From Acidovorax sp. 107 (lineage in GTDB: Bacteria; Pseudomonadota; Gammaproteobacteria; Burkholderiales; Burkholderiaceae_C), in NCBI RefSeq assembly GCF_003058055.1, contig NZ_QBTZ01000001.1:2622001-2686000 (forward strand): DNA of 64,000 nucleotides, written 5' to 3'. Each line of letters opens with the position of its first letter. The first letter of the stretch is position 1. A model generated the notes under the pieces. The model worked only from the letters and a program-made list of their open reading frames with translations, was not told the DNA's origin and did not search any database. The translations under genes were made by a program, and so were the position numbers. Shown piece after piece: positions 29,533 to 61,328 of this stretch.

Positions 29533-29610
29533 CGCCTCCCTGAGCGGCTGCGCCGCTTTTCCCAAAGGGGATGCATCCGGCGGCCCGGCAAAGCCGGTTC
29601 CGCAGGCGCA
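29533..29610 (+). repeat. Family 2 GC-rich repeat remnant
   Basis: CCTCCCTGAGCGGCTGCGCC then TTTTCCCAAAGGGGATGC and GGCGGCCCGGC keep the order of the family 2 blocks in a degenerate form. It lies directly after the MFS stop. Confidence 0.45.
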
Positions 29611-29684
29611 CCAACTTGATGCGCGTCAATTTCTACCGCCAGGTCGGGTGCCAAGGCTGGCAGTCGGCCTGCGACAATTGCGGA

Positions 29685-30797
29685 ATGACCTTCGCCCCTC
29701 TTGCCAACGACACCTTCCTGCGCGCCTGCCGCCGCCAGGCCACTGACTACACGCCCCTGTGGCTGATGCGCCAGGCGGGGCGCTATCTGCCGGAGTACAA
29801 GGCCACACGCGCCCAGGCGGGCAGCTTCATGGGCCTGGCCACCAATGTGGATTACTCCACCGAAGTGACTCTGCAGCCGCTGGAGCGTTTCCCGCTCGAC
29901 GCGGCCATCCTGTTCAGTGACATCCTCACCGTGCCCGACGCCATGGGCCTGGGCCTGTCGTTTGCCGAGGGCGAGGGCCCGCGCTTTGCCAAAGTGGTGC
30001 GCGACGAGGCTGCGGTGAATGAACTGGCCGTGCCCGACATGGACAAGCTGCGCTACGTGTTCGACGCCGTCACCAGCATCCGCAAGGCACTCAACGGCCG
30101 CGTACCGCTGATCGGCTTTTCGGGCAGCCCCTGGACGCTGGCCTGCTACATGGTCGAGGGCAAGGGCAGCGACGACTACCGCCTGGTCAAGACGCTGATG
30201 TACAGCCGCCCCGACCTGATGCACCGCATCCTGGCCGTGAATGCCGACAGCGTGGCCGCGTACCTCAACGCCCAGATCGACGCGGGCGCCCAGGCGGTGA
30301 TGATTTTTGACAGCTGGGGCGGCGTGCTGGCCGATGGCGCGTTCCAGGAATTCAGCCTGGCGTACACCAAGCGTGTGCTGGCGCAACTCAAGCGCACCGG
30401 CGTGGATGGCACCGACGTGCCGCGCATTGTCTTCACCAAGGGCGGCGGTATCTGGCTGGAAGACATGAAAGACATCGACTGCGAGGTGCTGGGGCTGGAC
30501 TGGACGGCCAACCTGGGCAAGGCGCGCACCATCGTGGGTGGCACGGCGGGCGGCCCCGGCAAGGCCTTGCAAGGCAATATCGACCCCAACGTGCTGTTTG
30601 CGCCCCCCGCGCAGATCATCACGCAGGTGCACGCCGTGCTCGACAGCTTCGGCACGCCGCACACCGACCGAACCACCACGGGTCCCACGCACATCTTCAA
30701 CCTGGGCCACGGCATCAGCCAGTTCACGCCGCCAGAGCATGTGGCAGCCCTTGTGGAAGCAGTGCACAGCCACTCGCGCGCGCAGCGCCAGCGCTGA
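29685..30797 (+). CDS. hemE: Uroporphyrinogen decarboxylase
   Basis: A 370-residue cytosolic enzyme that removes the four acetate carboxyls of uroporphyrinogen III to give coproporphyrinogen III in heme synthesis. Motifs: [27 protein letters not shown] (family signature, residues 11-37), [17 protein letters not shown] with the catalytic aspartate (about 81), [16 protein letters not shown] and [15 protein letters not shown] with a conserved histidine near 343. The length is typical. The ATG at 29685 places the signature at the expected distance; upstream in-frame ATGs are in the repeat remnant. In related genomes hemE also precedes priA. Confidence 0.97.
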
Positions 30798-31040
30798 TCG
30801 CAGGGACCAGACAGCGGTAAGAGCCCGCCATCCTCTCTGGCGGCATGCGCTCCCTTCCCAGGCCCGCCCTGGGTGCAAGCACACTCCGGCCCTGGCAGCC
30901 ACCCGCCGCCCGCCCCCTCTCCCCACCATTGCCCCTGCCCGGTCATCATCCTCTGGCTTGCACCTGGGTAGGGCGCCACAGCGGCCCCTGCGACAATCCG
31001 AGAGCGTTTACCTCCGGCCGAGGCGGCGCGCCAGGCGCAC

Positions 31041-31049
31041 TTATGCACA
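31041..31049 (+). promoter_or_regulatory. DnaA box TTATGCACA
   Basis: Matches the relaxed DnaA-box consensus TTWTNCACA. First site of duplication unit 1. Confidence 0.6.
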
Positions 31050-31227
31050 AAACTGGAGCATCCGCCCGCCCCTTTCGGCTTCAGACCGGGGCTCGCCAAA
31101 TATCCTTGCCCAATCGCTAAGTGGTTGATTTGTATGAATTTAAAGCCCCTGCCTTTTTGATAGGCAATCCAGCCAAAGCACGGATTGACAAAGACTTGCG
31201 GGGCAAACCCAAGGGATATCAACAAAG

Positions 31228-31236
31228 TTATCCACA
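31228..31236 (+). promoter_or_regulatory. DnaA box TTATCCACA (perfect)
   Basis: Perfect match to the strong DnaA box. Embedded in GGATATCAACAAAG and GGAATTC, which recur around the box at 31562. Confidence 0.75.
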
Positions 31237-31373
31237 GGAATTCTGAATTTCTTACAAATACCCTGTCAAATCAATCACTTGCAGCCCATATCGAAGAAAT
31301 GCATGAACATGAAACCACGCCACTAGCACAAAAAGGGGCTACCTGTCCTCTTGACGAAGTCCGGGTGTCCGAC

Positions 31374-31382
31374 TTATGCACA
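31374..31382 (+). promoter_or_regulatory. DnaA box TTATGCACA
   Basis: Equivalent of the 31041 site in duplication unit 2, on the same strand. Confidence 0.6.
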
Positions 31383-31561
31383 CAATTCGTGATGCAGCGC
31401 AACATAAAGCCGCCGGCACGGCATAGCACAAAAATCGGCGGCAAATTTCTTCAGATGATTGATTCATAACGATTTTTTTGGGGTGCCGTATTTCCGGGCA
31501 ATCTGTTCGCAGCCAGTATTCATGCGGCTTGGACGGTGGTCCGGGCAGGATGTCAACAAAG

Positions 31562-31570
31562 TTATCCACA
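31562..31570 (+). promoter_or_regulatory. DnaA box TTATCCACA (perfect)
   Basis: Equivalent of the 31228 site in duplication unit 2, 107 bases before the priA start codon. Confidence 0.75.
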
Positions 31571-31676
31571 GAAATTCGGGATTACTCACACACCCACGGC
31601 AAATCAAGCACTTAGCCGCTAAACCTCCAGATCACATCCACAACCCGCACTAAGCCTTCTTCTTGTCTCATAGCTT

Positions 31677-33815
31677 GTGTCAATCCCTTTCGCCATCGTC
31701 CACGTTGCCCTGCAAACGCCTTCCCACAGTGGCGTCGGCGACCTGCTGAGCTACGCCAGTGAGCACCCGCTCCCTCCAGGTGCGTTGGTGCGTGTGCCCC
31801 TGGGCACACGCGAGGTGCTGGGCGTGGTGTGGGATGCCGACGAGGCCCCTGGCGAGCTGCCCGATGGCGCCACCCTGCGCCCCATTGCCGGCGTGCTGGA
31901 GGGTGTCCCCCCCCTGGATGCGCCGTGGCGCCGGCTGGTGGGGTTTGCGGCGCGCTACTACCAGCGCGCCTTGGGCGAGGTGGCGCTGGCCGCCCTGCCC
32001 CCCCAGTTACGCGACCTGCGCCCCGAGCAGTTGGCGCGGCGGCTGCGGCGCCCGGCCAGGGGCGCTGGAGACGCCTCATTTACTATCGAAAACATAGCAC
32101 TCACCGCAGAACAGGAAAGCGCCAGAGCCCGAATTTCTGCAGAAAGAGGGCCCTTCCTGCTGTTTGGCAGCACGGGCAGCGGCAAGACCGAGGTGTATCT
32201 GCGCTGCGTGCAAGAGATGCTGGAGGCCGATCCCACCGCCCAGGCGCTGGTCATGGTGCCCGAGATCAACCTCACGCCCCAGCTGGAGGAGCGGTTTGCA
32301 GGCCGCTTTGCGCCGCGCTTTGGCCCCGGCGCCGTGGTGTCGCTGCACAGCGGCATGACGAACCCGCAACGCCTGGCCAGCTGGCTGGCCGCCCATGGCG
32401 GCAGCGCGCGCATCGTGCTGGGCACGCGCATGGCGGTGTTCGCCAGCCTGCCGGGGTTGAAGCTCATCGTGGTGGATGAGGAGCACGACCCCAGCTACAA
32501 GCAGCAAGAAGGCGCGCGCTACTCGGCCCGTGACCTGGCCATCTGGCGCGGGCGCGAGCAGGGCGCGAAGGTGGTCCTGGGCTCGGCCACGCCTTCGCTG
32601 GAGAGCTGGCACGCCAGCCGCCCGCCCACGGCCGAAGACCCCGAGGGCGGCCGCTACGTGCGCCTGCACATGCCCAGCCGCATCGGCGCCGGGGCCCTCG
32701 CCCGTGTGCGCCGGGTAGACATGAACCAGCAGCCCCGCCGCACCGTGTTCAGCGCGCCGCTGCTGCAGGCCATTACCGAACGCGTGGCGCGCGGCGAGCA
32801 GAGCATGATCCTGCTGAACCGCCGGGGCTACGCGCCCGTGCTGCACTGCGTGGACTGCGGCTGGAAGAGCGACTGTCCGCACTGCAGCGCGCACCAGGTG
32901 TTCCACAAGACCGACCGCACCCTGCGCTGCCACCACTGCGGCTACACGGTGCGCGTGCCGTTTCACTGCCCGACCTGCGGCAGCCCCGACATCCACCCCA
33001 TGGGCAAGGGCACCGAGCAACTGGAGGAGCAGCTGGGCACCCTGTTGCGGGAGGTGCTGCGGCCCGACCGCACGCCCGCCCGCATCGCCCGCATCGACGC
33101 CGACACCACCAAAGCCAAGGGCGCACTGGAAGCCCAACTGGCACAGGTGCATTCGGGCGAAGTGGATGTGCTGGTGGGCACGCAGATGATTGCCAAGGGG
33201 CACGACTTTCGGCGGATCACGCTGGTGGCTGCGGTGCAGCCCGATGGCGCGCTGTTCAGCAGCGACTTCCGCGCCGCCGAACGACTGTTTGCCCTGCTGA
33301 TGCAGGCGGCGGGCCGCGCCGGGCGCGACGCTGCCTACATGGCCGCCCAAGCGGTGCACGGCACGCAGCCCGAGATGTGGGTGCAGAGCTTTCACCCCCA
33401 GCACGCCGTGTTCGAGGCGCTGCGCAAGCACGACTACGAAGCCTTTGCCGCCCAGCAGCTCAAGGAGCGCGAAGAGGCCGCCATGCCCCCGTTCTCGTAC
33501 CAGGCGCTGGTGCGGGCCGATGCGCGCACGCAGGAGGTGGCCCAGGGCTTTCTGACTGCAGCCACCGCCGCCGCCCACGCCGCGCAGTTGCCGGGTTTGC
33601 CCGATGGCACGGTGATCCTGTTCCCGCCCGTGCCGCTCACGATCCAGCGCGTTGCCAATGTGGAGCGCGCCCAGATGCTGATGGAAAGCAGCAGCCGCGC
33701 CACCCTCCAGCGCTTTCTGGCCGCGTGGCAGCCGATATTGCAAGCCACGCGCAGCCAGCCGGAGCACAAGGGGCTGATCCGCTGGCTGGTGGACGTGGAC
33801 CCGCTGGCCATCTAA
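31677..33815 (+). CDS. priA: Primosomal protein N' (replication restart helicase)
   Basis: A 712-residue PriA, the 3'-5' DNA helicase that recognises stalled forks and reloads the replisome. An N-terminal 3'-DNA-binding domain is followed by the helicase core with Walker A GSTGSGKTE (about residues 162-170) and DEEHDPSYK (about 266). Zinc-binding cysteines occur as CVDCGWKSDCPHC and CHHCGYTV...CPTCG (about residues 391-437), and LVGTQMIAKGHDF and AAGRAGRD follow. The frame starts at GTG 31677, since no ATG gives the normal N-terminus IPFAIVHVAL. The DnaA-box duplication lies directly upstream, so DnaA may influence its expression. Confidence 0.96.
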   Translation: MSIPFAIVHVALQTPSHSGVGDLLSYASEHPLPPGALVRVPLGTREVLGVVWDADEAPGELPDGATLRPIAGVLEGVPPLDAPWRRLVGFAARYYQRALGEVALAALPPQLRDLRPEQLARRLRRPARGAGDASFTIENIALTAEQESARARISAERGPFLLFGSTGSGKTEVYLRCVQEMLEADPTAQALVMVPEINLTPQLEERFAGRFAPRFGPGAVVSLHSGMTNPQRLASWLAAHGGSARIVLGTRMAVFASLPGLKLIVVDEEHDPSYKQQEGARYSARDLAIWRGREQGAKVVLGSATPSLESWHASRPPTAEDPEGGRYVRLHMPSRIGAGALARVRRVDMNQQPRRTVFSAPLLQAITERVARGEQSMILLNRRGYAPVLHCVDCGWKSDCPHCSAHQVFHKTDRTLRCHHCGYTVRVPFHCPTCGSPDIHPMGKGTEQLEEQLGTLLREVLRPDRTPARIARIDADTTKAKGALEAQLAQVHSGEVDVLVGTQMIAKGHDFRRITLVAAVQPDGALFSSDFRAAERLFALLMQAAGRAGRDAAYMAAQAVHGTQPEMWVQSFHPQHAVFEALRKHDYEAFAAQQLKEREEAAMPPFSYQALVRADARTQEVAQGFLTAATAAAHAAQLPGLPDGTVILFPPVPLTIQRVANVERAQMLMESSSRATLQRFLAAWQPILQATRSQPEHKGLIRWLVDVDPLAI

Positions 33816-59372: not shown

Positions 59373-61328
59373 TTATGCGCATGATATGTCCTGTTGCAGC
59401 AGTCCAGCGACTCGACCATGCAAGCTCTCCGGGGTGACGAGGAGTGACTGAACAGGCGCCCCCACATTCAGCCCCACGCGGCTGTAGAAGCCCCGGCGGA
59501 ACGGCCGCACCATCGCGCCGCCTTTTTCAATGCGGCTGAAGTACGAGCCCCACAGGTTGGTCAACGCCATGGGGATCACCGGCGCCTCGACACCCTCGGC
59601 CTTCGCCCGTTCGATGATCTTCATGATGCCGCCCTTGAACTCCTGCAGCTGCCCGTCCTTGGTGATTCCACCCTCGGGGAAGATGGCAAGCAAGTCGCCC
59701 TCGCGCAGCACCTGGGCAGCACGGTCGAAAGCCGCTTCATAGGTCTTCGGGTCTTCCTTGTACGGCGCAATCGGGATGGCCTTGGCCAGGCGGAAGAGCC
59801 AGCCCAGCACCGGCACGCGGAAGATGCGGTGATCCATCACGAAGTAGATGGGGCGCGGGCTGGCGGCCATGAGCAGCACGGCATCCACAAAGCTCACGTG
59901 GTTGCACGCCAGGATGGCCGCGCCGGTGGACGGCAGGTTTTCATCGCCCTGCACCTTGAAGCGGTACACGAACCGGGAAGACACCCACGCGATGAAGCGC
60001 AGCAGGTATTCAGGCACCAGCATGAAGATGTAGAACGCCACCACGGCGTTGGCCAGGCCGGTGAACAGGAAGATCTGCGGCACCGTGAAGCCCGCGCCCA
60101 GCAAGGCGCCGGCGATGAGCGAGCTGCCGATCATGAACAGCGCGTTCAGAATATTGTTGGCCGCGATGATGCGTGCGCGGTGTGTGGGCTGGCTGCGCAT
60201 CTGGATCAGCGCGTACATGGGTACGCTGTACAGGCCCGCGAACAGGCTGAGCAGCGCTAGGTCCAGCATCACGCGCCAGTGGGCGCCCTGGGCCACGAAG
60301 GCGGCCAGGCCCATGATCTCGGACGGCGGCAGGCTGCGCGACGCGAAATACAGGTCGATGGAGAACACGCTCATGCCGATGGCGCCCAGCGGCACCAGGC
60401 CGATCTCGACATGGCGGCGCGACAGCACCTCGCACAGCAGCGAGCCCACACCAATGCCGATGGAGAACACCACCAGCAGCAGCGAGGCCACCTGCTCGTT
60501 GCCATGCAGCACGTTCTTGGCCAGGCTGGGGAACTGGCTCAGGAACACCGCGCCAAAGAACCACATCCAGCTGATGCCCAGCAGCGAGCGGAACACCACC
60601 ACGTTCTCGTGTGCCAGCTTGAGGTTGCGCCAGGTTTCGGTGAAGGGATTCCAGTTGATGGTGAGGCCTGGATCAGTGGCGGGCACGGACGGAATGAACT
60701 GCGCCACGGCGCGCCCAATCAGTGCAGCCACCACACAGGCCACGGCCACGGTGGTGTGACCGATACCCGGGATGGCCACCAGCAAACCACCGGCCACATT
60801 GCCCAGCAAGATGGCCACAAACGTGCCCATCTCGACCATGCCATTGCCGCCTGTGAGCTCGCGCTCGTTGAGCACCTGGGGCATGTACGCAAACTTGACG
60901 GGGCCGAATAGCGTGGAGTGCACGCCCATCAAGAAGGTGCACAGCAGCAAGATGGGAATGTTGCCTGCGATGAAGCCCACGGCCGCCACCAGCATGATGG
61001 CGATCTCCAGGTTCTTCACGAAGCGGATCATCTTCGTCTTGTCGTACTTGTCGGTGAGCTGGCCCGATGTGGCCGAGAACAGCAGGAACGGCAGGATGAA
61101 CAGCGCGCCGATCACCAGCCCCGCCATCGCGGGCGGCAGCCAGTCCACACTGAGCTGGTAGGTCACCATCACCGTGAAGGCGAACTTGAAGAGGTTGTCG
61201 TTGGCCGCACCCGAAAACTGCGTCCAGAAAAACGGTGCAAAGCGCCGCTGGCGCAGGAGGGCAAACTGGTTCGGGTCCTCGTGCGTGGGTGCGGGGGCCA
61301 CGCTGGTGGAGGCGGTGTCGGGGCTCAT
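59373..61328 (-). CDS. MFS flippase-acyltransferase fusion (LplT-PlsC type)
   Basis: A 651-residue fusion. Residues ~20-430 form a 12-helix MFS domain like LplT, the lysophospholipid flippase (TQFSGAANDNLFKFAF, LTDKYDKTKMIR). Residues ~440-640 form a PlsC-type acyltransferase with the NHVSFVD catalytic motif (NHx4D), FPEGGITKDG and PMALTNLWGS. This is the same logic as LplT plus Aas: uptake of lysophospholipid and re-acylation in one polypeptide, here without the Aas acyl-ACP synthetase domain. GAGGAG precedes the ATG at 61328. Confidence 0.92.
   Translation of the reverse strand: MSPDTASTSVAPAPTHEDPNQFALLRQRRFAPFFWTQFSGAANDNLFKFAFTVMVTYQLSVDWLPPAMAGLVIGALFILPFLLFSATSGQLTDKYDKTKMIRFVKNLEIAIMLVAAVGFIAGNIPILLLCTFLMGVHSTLFGPVKFAYMPQVLNERELTGGNGMVEMGTFVAILLGNVAGGLLVAIPGIGHTTVAVACVVAALIGRAVAQFIPSVPATDPGLTINWNPFTETWRNLKLAHENVVVFRSLLGISWMWFFGAVFLSQFPSLAKNVLHGNEQVASLLLVVFSIGIGVGSLLCEVLSRRHVEIGLVPLGAIGMSVFSIDLYFASRSLPPSEIMGLAAFVAQGAHWRVMLDLALLSLFAGLYSVPMYALIQMRSQPTHRARIIAANNILNALFMIGSSLIAGALLGAGFTVPQIFLFTGLANAVVAFYIFMLVPEYLLRFIAWVSSRFVYRFKVQGDENLPSTGAAILACNHVSFVDAVLLMAASPRPIYFVMDHRIFRVPVLGWLFRLAKAIPIAPYKEDPKTYEAAFDRAAQVLREGDLLAIFPEGGITKDGQLQEFKGGIMKIIERAKAEGVEAPVIPMALTNLWGSYFSRIEKGGAMVRPFRRGFYSRVGLNVGAPVQSLLVTPESLHGRVAGLLQQDISCA

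Follow-up and report, generated by a model that had tools for sequence, protein, structure and literature searches.

The locus described here lies in a window of 64 kb (C1:2622001-2686000) on the 4.92-Mb contig of the 5.11 Mb genome of Acidovorax sp. 107; coordinates given without a contig refer to this window. The gene hemE (29571..30797, + strand, with a URO-D domain match) is followed on the same strand by priA (31677..33815, with PriA domain matches), and the intergenic region bounded by the two gene ends (30798..31676, + strand) is 879 bp long and sits at 2.653 Mb on the chromosome. It had been described in an initial annotation as an 880-base gene-free region upstream of priA, and this description holds: a Pfam match was sought for two of the small ORFs, lying partly or wholly inside the gap, and none was found, so a coding role for them was dropped. 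An RNA feature in the gap was dropped as well, since an Rfam scan of the window returned a single match, at 60.5 kb (60507-60628, - strand), to the Burkholderia sRNA family Bcj11 with 89.4 bits. The G+C content of the gap is 0.55, against 0.669 for the window.

Four exact DnaA boxes had been reported in this gap, and they are indeed present at 31041, 31228, 31374 and 31562, two of them reading TTATGCACA and two TTATCCACA. No other exact TTATNCACA site occurs in the 64-kb window. When one mismatch is allowed, the window holds 11 sites (the 4 exact ones included) against 12.05 expected, which is chance level, and the excess is confined to the exact boxes of the hemE-priA gap. The whole 5.11 Mb contains 36 exact boxes; at the density of the remaining 32, the gap would be expected to hold 0.0055, and the probability of finding at least four is ~4e-11. 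A first-order Markov model with the composition of the gap gave a mean of 0.019 boxes and a maximum of 2 over 20,000 trials. The worry that four boxes might be no more than DNA of this size and composition would carry was raised with the initial annotation; their number is far above that expectation.

The boxes are part of a diverged tandem duplication, for which a unit of ~334 bases had been proposed. The repeat blocks agree with this spacing (43 nt at 86% identity, spaced 334; 14 nt at 93%, spaced 333), and the alignment of unit 1 (31036..31292, + strand) with unit 2 (31368..31621, + strand, adjoining priA) has 163 identical columns out of 274, or 59% over the whole unit, with a score of 35.5 against -21 or less across 200 shuffles. 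Both units are recognized by two profiles, neither of which contains E. coli sequence: R1, for which 39 single units were taken from hemE-priA gaps in Comamonadaceae and their close kin, and R2, built from 28 loci of the same class outside the order. Unit 1 scores 112.2 bits with R1 and 58.5 bits with R2 (at 31041-31280), and unit 2 scores 122.7 and 70.6 bits (the latter at 31374-31617).

Each unit follows the same order, with positions counted from box II: a distal DnaA box at about -187, an IHF site on the other strand at -110, a weak box III, 3 bp, box II, 5 bp, a degenerate inverted box I, and a further IHF site at about +40. The distal box of unit 1 (TTATGCACA, 31041..31049, + strand) is exact and found at the same place in relatives. 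It is followed by an exact IHF-consensus site (AATCAACCACTTA, 31118..31130, - strand) at -110 from box II, an offset shared by 24 of the 28 class loci, and by box III (ATATCAACA, 31216..31224, + strand), which has two mismatches and lies in a conserved block 3 bp ahead of the exact box II (TTATCCACA, 31228..31236, + strand). The place of the inverted box I (31242..31250, - strand) reads TCTGAATTT on the + strand, with three mismatches to TGTGNATAA and without GGAT, at an offset where the family as a whole carries a signal. An exact IHF-consensus site (AATCAATCACTTG, 31269..31281, + strand) follows at +41. Unit 2 repeats this plan, with an exact distal box (TTATGCACA, 31374..31382, + strand), an IHF-like site with one mismatch (AATCAATCATCTG, 31452..31464, - strand) again at the -110 of the class loci, a box III with three mismatches (ATGTCAACA, 31550..31558, + strand), an exact box II (TTATCCACA, 31562..31570, + strand), a place for box I (31576..31584, - strand) that reads TCGGGATTA on the + strand with three mismatches to TGTGNATAA and the same family-wide signal at its offset, and an exact IHF-consensus site (AATCAAGCACTTA, 31602..31614, + strand) at +40. 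As sequence matches, the two units therefore hold three exact IHF sites and one with a single mismatch. With boxes I and III weak in both, the two units may rely on the distal box together with box II, or be of unequal strength.

The arrangement recurs in relatives. From the contigs of related genomes we took 80 hemE loci and extracted 75 hemE-priA gaps; the other five were left out since priA was not found in the stored piece (L073, L094 and L104, which carry boxes, L082, which stops at hemE, and L135, which has no boxes). An exact box pair spaced 180-202 bp is present in 65 of the 75 gaps and the block ACAAAGTTATCCACA in 71, with an IHF-consensus site between the boxes in 58 and after box II in 51. 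A single unit occupies 40 of the gaps, where the boxes are 185-189 bp apart and exactly 187 bp apart in 23, and 18 gaps contain two full spaced pairs, further ones having two units with one box changed. Alignment of 39 single units left 42 invariant columns, 36 of them in the four box places (distal, III, II and inverted) or in the two IHF sites. The other six make up two triplets, TGC and GCA, which lie after the IHF site and ahead of box III, separated by 11 bases and flanking a T-rich tract (alignment positions 120-122 and 134-136). Across 96 family cores, the inverted box I at 5 bp matches in 4.92 of 9 bases on average, against at most 3.29 at 31 other offsets. The element is absent from two of the 75 gaps, those of L097 and L099, which measure 18 and 8 bp, and it is eroded in Comamonas (L084-L087), where box II is kept, box I is lost and only 0-2 IHF-consensus sites are present. 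At the other extreme, the 1454-bp gap of L088 carries six exact boxes, as if a pair of units had doubled again. The initial annotation had taken the kept boxes as a sign of selection for DnaA binding and proposed this very comparison; in the relatives the boxes are conserved as most else drifts, a pattern that argues for such selection. Its picture stands as regards the boxes and the repeat, and was incomplete in missing the IHF sites, box III, the inverted box I and the single-unit state of 40 of the 75 relatives.

A quick tree of 84 units, in which 36 of the 81 inner branches are weak, gives an indication of the age of the duplication. The first units of nine Acidovorax loci and of the window cluster together (SH-aLRT 98), and a second cluster (SH-aLRT 90) of 15 rows gathers 14 second units, including that of the window, with the first unit of L088. 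In one Hydrogenophaga, the two units are each other's nearest neighbours (SH-aLRT 99). Because first and second units cluster apart in Acidovorax and pair together in this Hydrogenophaga, the pair in the window appears to predate the divergence of these Acidovorax species, and on this tree the duplication has recurred elsewhere.

Genome samples of the order, the class and the phylum were scored with stricter filters (E up to 0.01 for R1), using as background for false positives 450 kb of E. coli, 847 kb sampled from the own genome and the whole own genome. In the order, R1 matched 358 of 399 genomes and 156 of 159 genera, leaving 41 genomes without a match. The class, which we take to be Gammaproteobacteria in the GTDB sense, gave matches in 314 of 369 genomes (55 without) and in 240 of 272 genera, and R2 matched 159 of 200 genomes of the phylum (41 without), about a quarter of the 200 being from the same class. 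Neighbouring genes were checked at 58 loci, which are high-scoring returns of the order and class searches and not a random draw: priA lies directly downstream on the same strand in 39, in 34 of them within 180 bp of its estimated start, and was not found in the stored stretch of the other 19, one of which (L186) ends 185 bp behind the element. Among the 28 class loci outside the order, 26 have the distal box between -180 and -202, and 24 have an IHF-like site (one mismatch at most, other strand) between -108 and -112. The inverted box TGTGGATAA stands at +14 from box II with 7-9 of its 9 bases in all 28. This agreement in spacing is partly built in, as R1 chose the loci on which R2 was trained; the exact inverted box pair, found in 20 of the 28 and in only 3 of 20 order loci outside the family, and the place before priA are not.

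Within the own genome, R2 found one further locus (C1:1998714-1998852, E 6.3e-15), the next match having E 0.399. This second, DARS-like locus (C1:1998706-1998855; L153 1411-1559) adjoins genes for the exonuclease VII large subunit and an ExbD/TolR-type protein. Copies away from priA in other genomes adjoin genes for a UvrD/Rep-type helicase, a 5'-3' exonuclease, an rRNA adenine dimethylase and others, as judged from one or two ORFs scanned at 18 of 20 loci (L186 and L202 were left out), with 8 of the 30 proteins having no Pfam match at the cut-off. A dispersed repeat was considered and dropped, given that a similarity search returned, besides the locus itself, two matches at E 0.46, and R2 the one further locus.

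Two other groups of sites came to light in the same genome. At C1:848660-849030 (L036 8620-9050) a diverged unit occurs three times in tandem, and in each copy an IHF-consensus-like site is followed ~35 bp on by TTATCCACA. With R2 scores of 5-10 bits only, this triple locus was set aside as a close relative of the module and is probably a separate thing, possibly a datA-like site; similar DNA occurs in 9 of 60 family genomes, the own included. Moreover, exact TTATCCACA sites at C1:1438607, 1601015 and 1852928 and at C2:23833 and 77458 lie ~180 bp behind matches in ORFs, matches that we take to be IstB-like. Because these ORFs are of equal length and the box follows at the same distance in each, the five sites are probably carried by copies of one insertion sequence.

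The core of a DARS is described as a set of three DnaA boxes in which boxes I and II face each other (PMC8682772). The class loci as a group have this arrangement; the two window units combine an exact box II with a box III of 2 and 3 mismatches, respectively, and a box I of 3 mismatches in each. The search in E. coli K-12 covered 450 kb of its 4.64 Mb as nine pieces of 50 kb, picked so as to hold DARS1, DARS2, datA, oriC and priA, four of the nine being arbitrary background. R1 gave four matches up to E 10, namely DARS2 (5.8e-6), a second place in DARS2 (8.5e-4), DARS1 (0.0019) and datA (0.02). R2 gave eight, with DARS1 first (9.9e-10, 35.8 bits) and DARS2 second (2.1e-8), followed by further matches in the DARS2 region (2.3e-4, 0.023 and 0.061), datA (0.003), a site ahead of nudE (0.006) and another close to DARS1 (0.56). 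In these pieces, E. coli oriC and the region before E. coli priA had no match to R1 or R2. The match before nudE (L225 26242-26362) is weak and is the sole one in E. coli away from known DnaA loci. Since neither uvrB nor mutH was found in the stored flanks of the 58 loci, the orthologues of the E. coli sites themselves lie outside the R2 training.

DARS elements speed the release of ADP from DnaA and promote initiation. On balance, we favour the view that an ancient DARS-type DnaA/IHF element, duplicated in Acidovorax-type genomes, is present as a tandem pair in the hemE-priA gap. This view draws on what the sequence shows: on the anatomy of the units, on their conservation and spacing, on their relation to DARS1 and DARS2, on the frequent place before priA and on the distance from the likely oriC. 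The initial annotation had preferred, over oriC, a locus that titrates or reactivates DnaA, or else a priA promoter under DnaA control; this choice is borne out, and the reactivating type fits best because profiles made without E. coli sequence pick out DARS1 and DARS2. By analogy with these two, ADP-DnaA would assemble on boxes III and II and the inverted box I of each unit, and head-to-head contact between the DnaA molecules at boxes II and I would loosen the ADP, so that it would be released and ATP-DnaA regenerated in time for the following round of initiation at oriC. Bending of the DNA by IHF at -110 and near +40 would shape the complex, the distal box TTATGCACA near -187 would be drawn into it, and the duplication of the unit would raise dosage. 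We infer the binding of DnaA and IHF in this host, the nucleotide exchange, its timing in the cell cycle and the effect of the duplication on dosage. The genome encodes DnaA, Hda (217.3 bits, cut-off 194.8) and the IHF-alpha subunit (himA family, 120.5 bits, cut-off 120.25), and Hda and IHF-alpha would be the parts that switch DnaA off again and bend the site.

The main rival is that the module is a promoter region through which DnaA and IHF control priA, with DnaA repressing or activating it so that this fork-restart helicase would be produced in step with initiation, nucleotide exchange not being the role of the module. We regard this as rather unlikely when taken alone, and it is compatible with a DARS role. 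The element is on the priA strand and directly upstream in all 39 loci in which priA was found, mostly within 180 bp of the estimated start, a location that suits a promoter equally well. DARS1 itself lies upstream of uvrB, a gene described as negatively regulated by DnaA, and DnaA sites occur before several replication and repair genes (PMC11317965). Similarly, the UvrD/Rep-type helicase, 5'-3' exonuclease and exonuclease VII genes that adjoin other copies fit such a role. However, the module is kept without priA, because 19 of the 58 loci have no priA in the stored stretch and the second copy of the own genome as well as DARS1 and DARS2 are away from it. In addition, a geometry of ~240 bp with an inverted box pair exceeds the needs of a simple repressor site.

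A datA-like site, which would bind much DnaA with the help of IHF and either titrate it or speed the hydrolysis of its ATP, is in our estimate improbable. Like the window units, datA combines an IHF site with two boxes set 3 bp apart, and it matches both profiles weakly. In each window unit an IHF site lies between the distal box and box II. Yet the datA match is short, extending over no more than 57-62 bp about a single box (E 0.02 and 0.003), the scan saw no inverted box 5 bp behind it, and both profiles give DARS1 and DARS2 higher scores.

That the gap is a replication origin, be it the main one or a reserve, is very improbable. The DnaA boxes, the IHF sites, the drop in G+C and the adjacent replication gene would all be at home in one, and the initial annotation had already thought oriC the less likely choice. 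GC skew was sampled in the window and 39 further stretches, 40 in all. Negative values prevail between 2.0 and 3.15 Mb and positive ones beyond 3.16 Mb, apart from 2.9, 3.18 and 3.22 Mb, where the skew is weak or contrary, so that the sign turns at ~3.16-3.25 Mb; dnaA lies at 3.19 Mb, ~540 kb from the element, and a palindrome that we assume to be a parS-like motif at 3.284 Mb. At C1:3253700-3254520 (L046 8660-9520), 62 kb from dnaA, two tandem AT-rich tracts are each followed by TAG repeats, presumably DnaA-trio-like, with DnaA boxes. This cluster at 3.2537-3.2545 Mb is likely oriC and is ~600 kb from the element. In two complete relatives, dnaA is found at 1.1-1.5 kb, and the hemE loci are at 332-341 kb in one (4.14 Mb) and at 536-545 kb in the other (3.76 Mb). 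The gap at 2.653 Mb is thus not at the skew switch, no AT-rich tract with TAG repeats was seen in it by eye, and E. coli oriC, which shares DnaA boxes and IHF with the gap, is matched by neither profile and has its counterpart at another chromosomal place. Finally, chance or a functionless mobile repeat, which the tandem units and the recurrent duplication might bring to mind, is hardly credible given a four-box chance of ~4e-11, one geometry, often in one place, across the class sample and only two loci below E 0.39 in the 5.1-Mb genome.

If the elements described here are DARS, a DnaA cycle with reactivation sites would be general across a very large clade, could be tested in many organisms at once and would have a recurrent partner gene in priA. 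It is also possible, and we offer it tentatively as a bolder and less probable idea, that DARS, rather than having arisen in the E. coli group, is an ancient proteobacterial module of fixed geometry with its commonest and perhaps original home in the priA promoter. There it would both recharge DnaA and place the restart helicase under DnaA control, so that the firing of origins and the rescue of forks would be coupled; E. coli would keep its copies at uvrB and mutH instead, DARS2 itself being a tandem duplication like that of the hemE-priA gap. In a 2014 study, conservation of the DARS2 core is described as specific to gamma-proteobacteria related to E. coli (PMC4245941), and relative to that study, what is new is a DARS-type element outside this group, its recurrent place before priA and its duplication here. 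Among the open-licence matches listed, no title or abstract opening mentioned DARS in beta-proteobacteria or DnaA boxes before priA, and a literature search for DARS linked with priA, or for a second origin in Pseudomonas, gave nothing relevant among the open-licence texts listed.

Of the known systems, DARS1 and DARS2 are the closest to the window element. DARS1, upstream of uvrB, has the same three-box core and spacing and is the best R2 match in the 450 kb. Its boxes I and III are better than those of the window (box I has one mismatch against three), whereas it has no clear IHF site, the best one lying at -111 with two mismatches among the seven loose sites of the DARS1 gap, loose sites being frequent. 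It also differs in its neighbour gene and in having no second unit beyond the weak match at E 0.56. DARS2 requires sites for both IHF and Fis, and DARS1 requires no Fis. DARS2, upstream of mutH, shares with the window a box II and an inverted box I 5 bp apart with a weak box III ahead, and box I of its main core has three mismatches, the same as in each window unit. An IHF-like site with one mismatch lies at -109, against -110 in the window, which is weak evidence as loose sites (up to two mismatches) are frequent, with 16 in the DARS2 gap. DARS2 differs from the window element in its neighbour gene, mutH, and in its known Fis sites.

DARS2 may also share the tandem arrangement. The two DARS2 matches (L221 29131-29287 and 29433-29590) are ~300 bp apart, the second scoring 31.5 bits, and the window units are 333 bp apart. 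The second match covers the box pair TTCTTCACA-CTATCCACA, with an inverted box with one mismatch 5 bp behind. This pair is a DnaA site in E. coli ChIP-seq data, in which DnaA favours box pairs 2-3 bp apart and DARS1, DARS2 and datA are among the bound sites (PMC11317965). Upstream of the pair there are two IHF-like sites 3 bp apart, a distance that fits the spacing reported for IBS1 and IBS2 (PMC4245941). It appears to us that IBS1-2 belong to a second E. coli unit, and the one profile match together with the IHF and box sites suggests that DARS2 consists of two tandem units. If this is true, E. coli DARS2 gains a simple internal structure, that of two units in tandem, as in the hemE-priA gap of Acidovorax.
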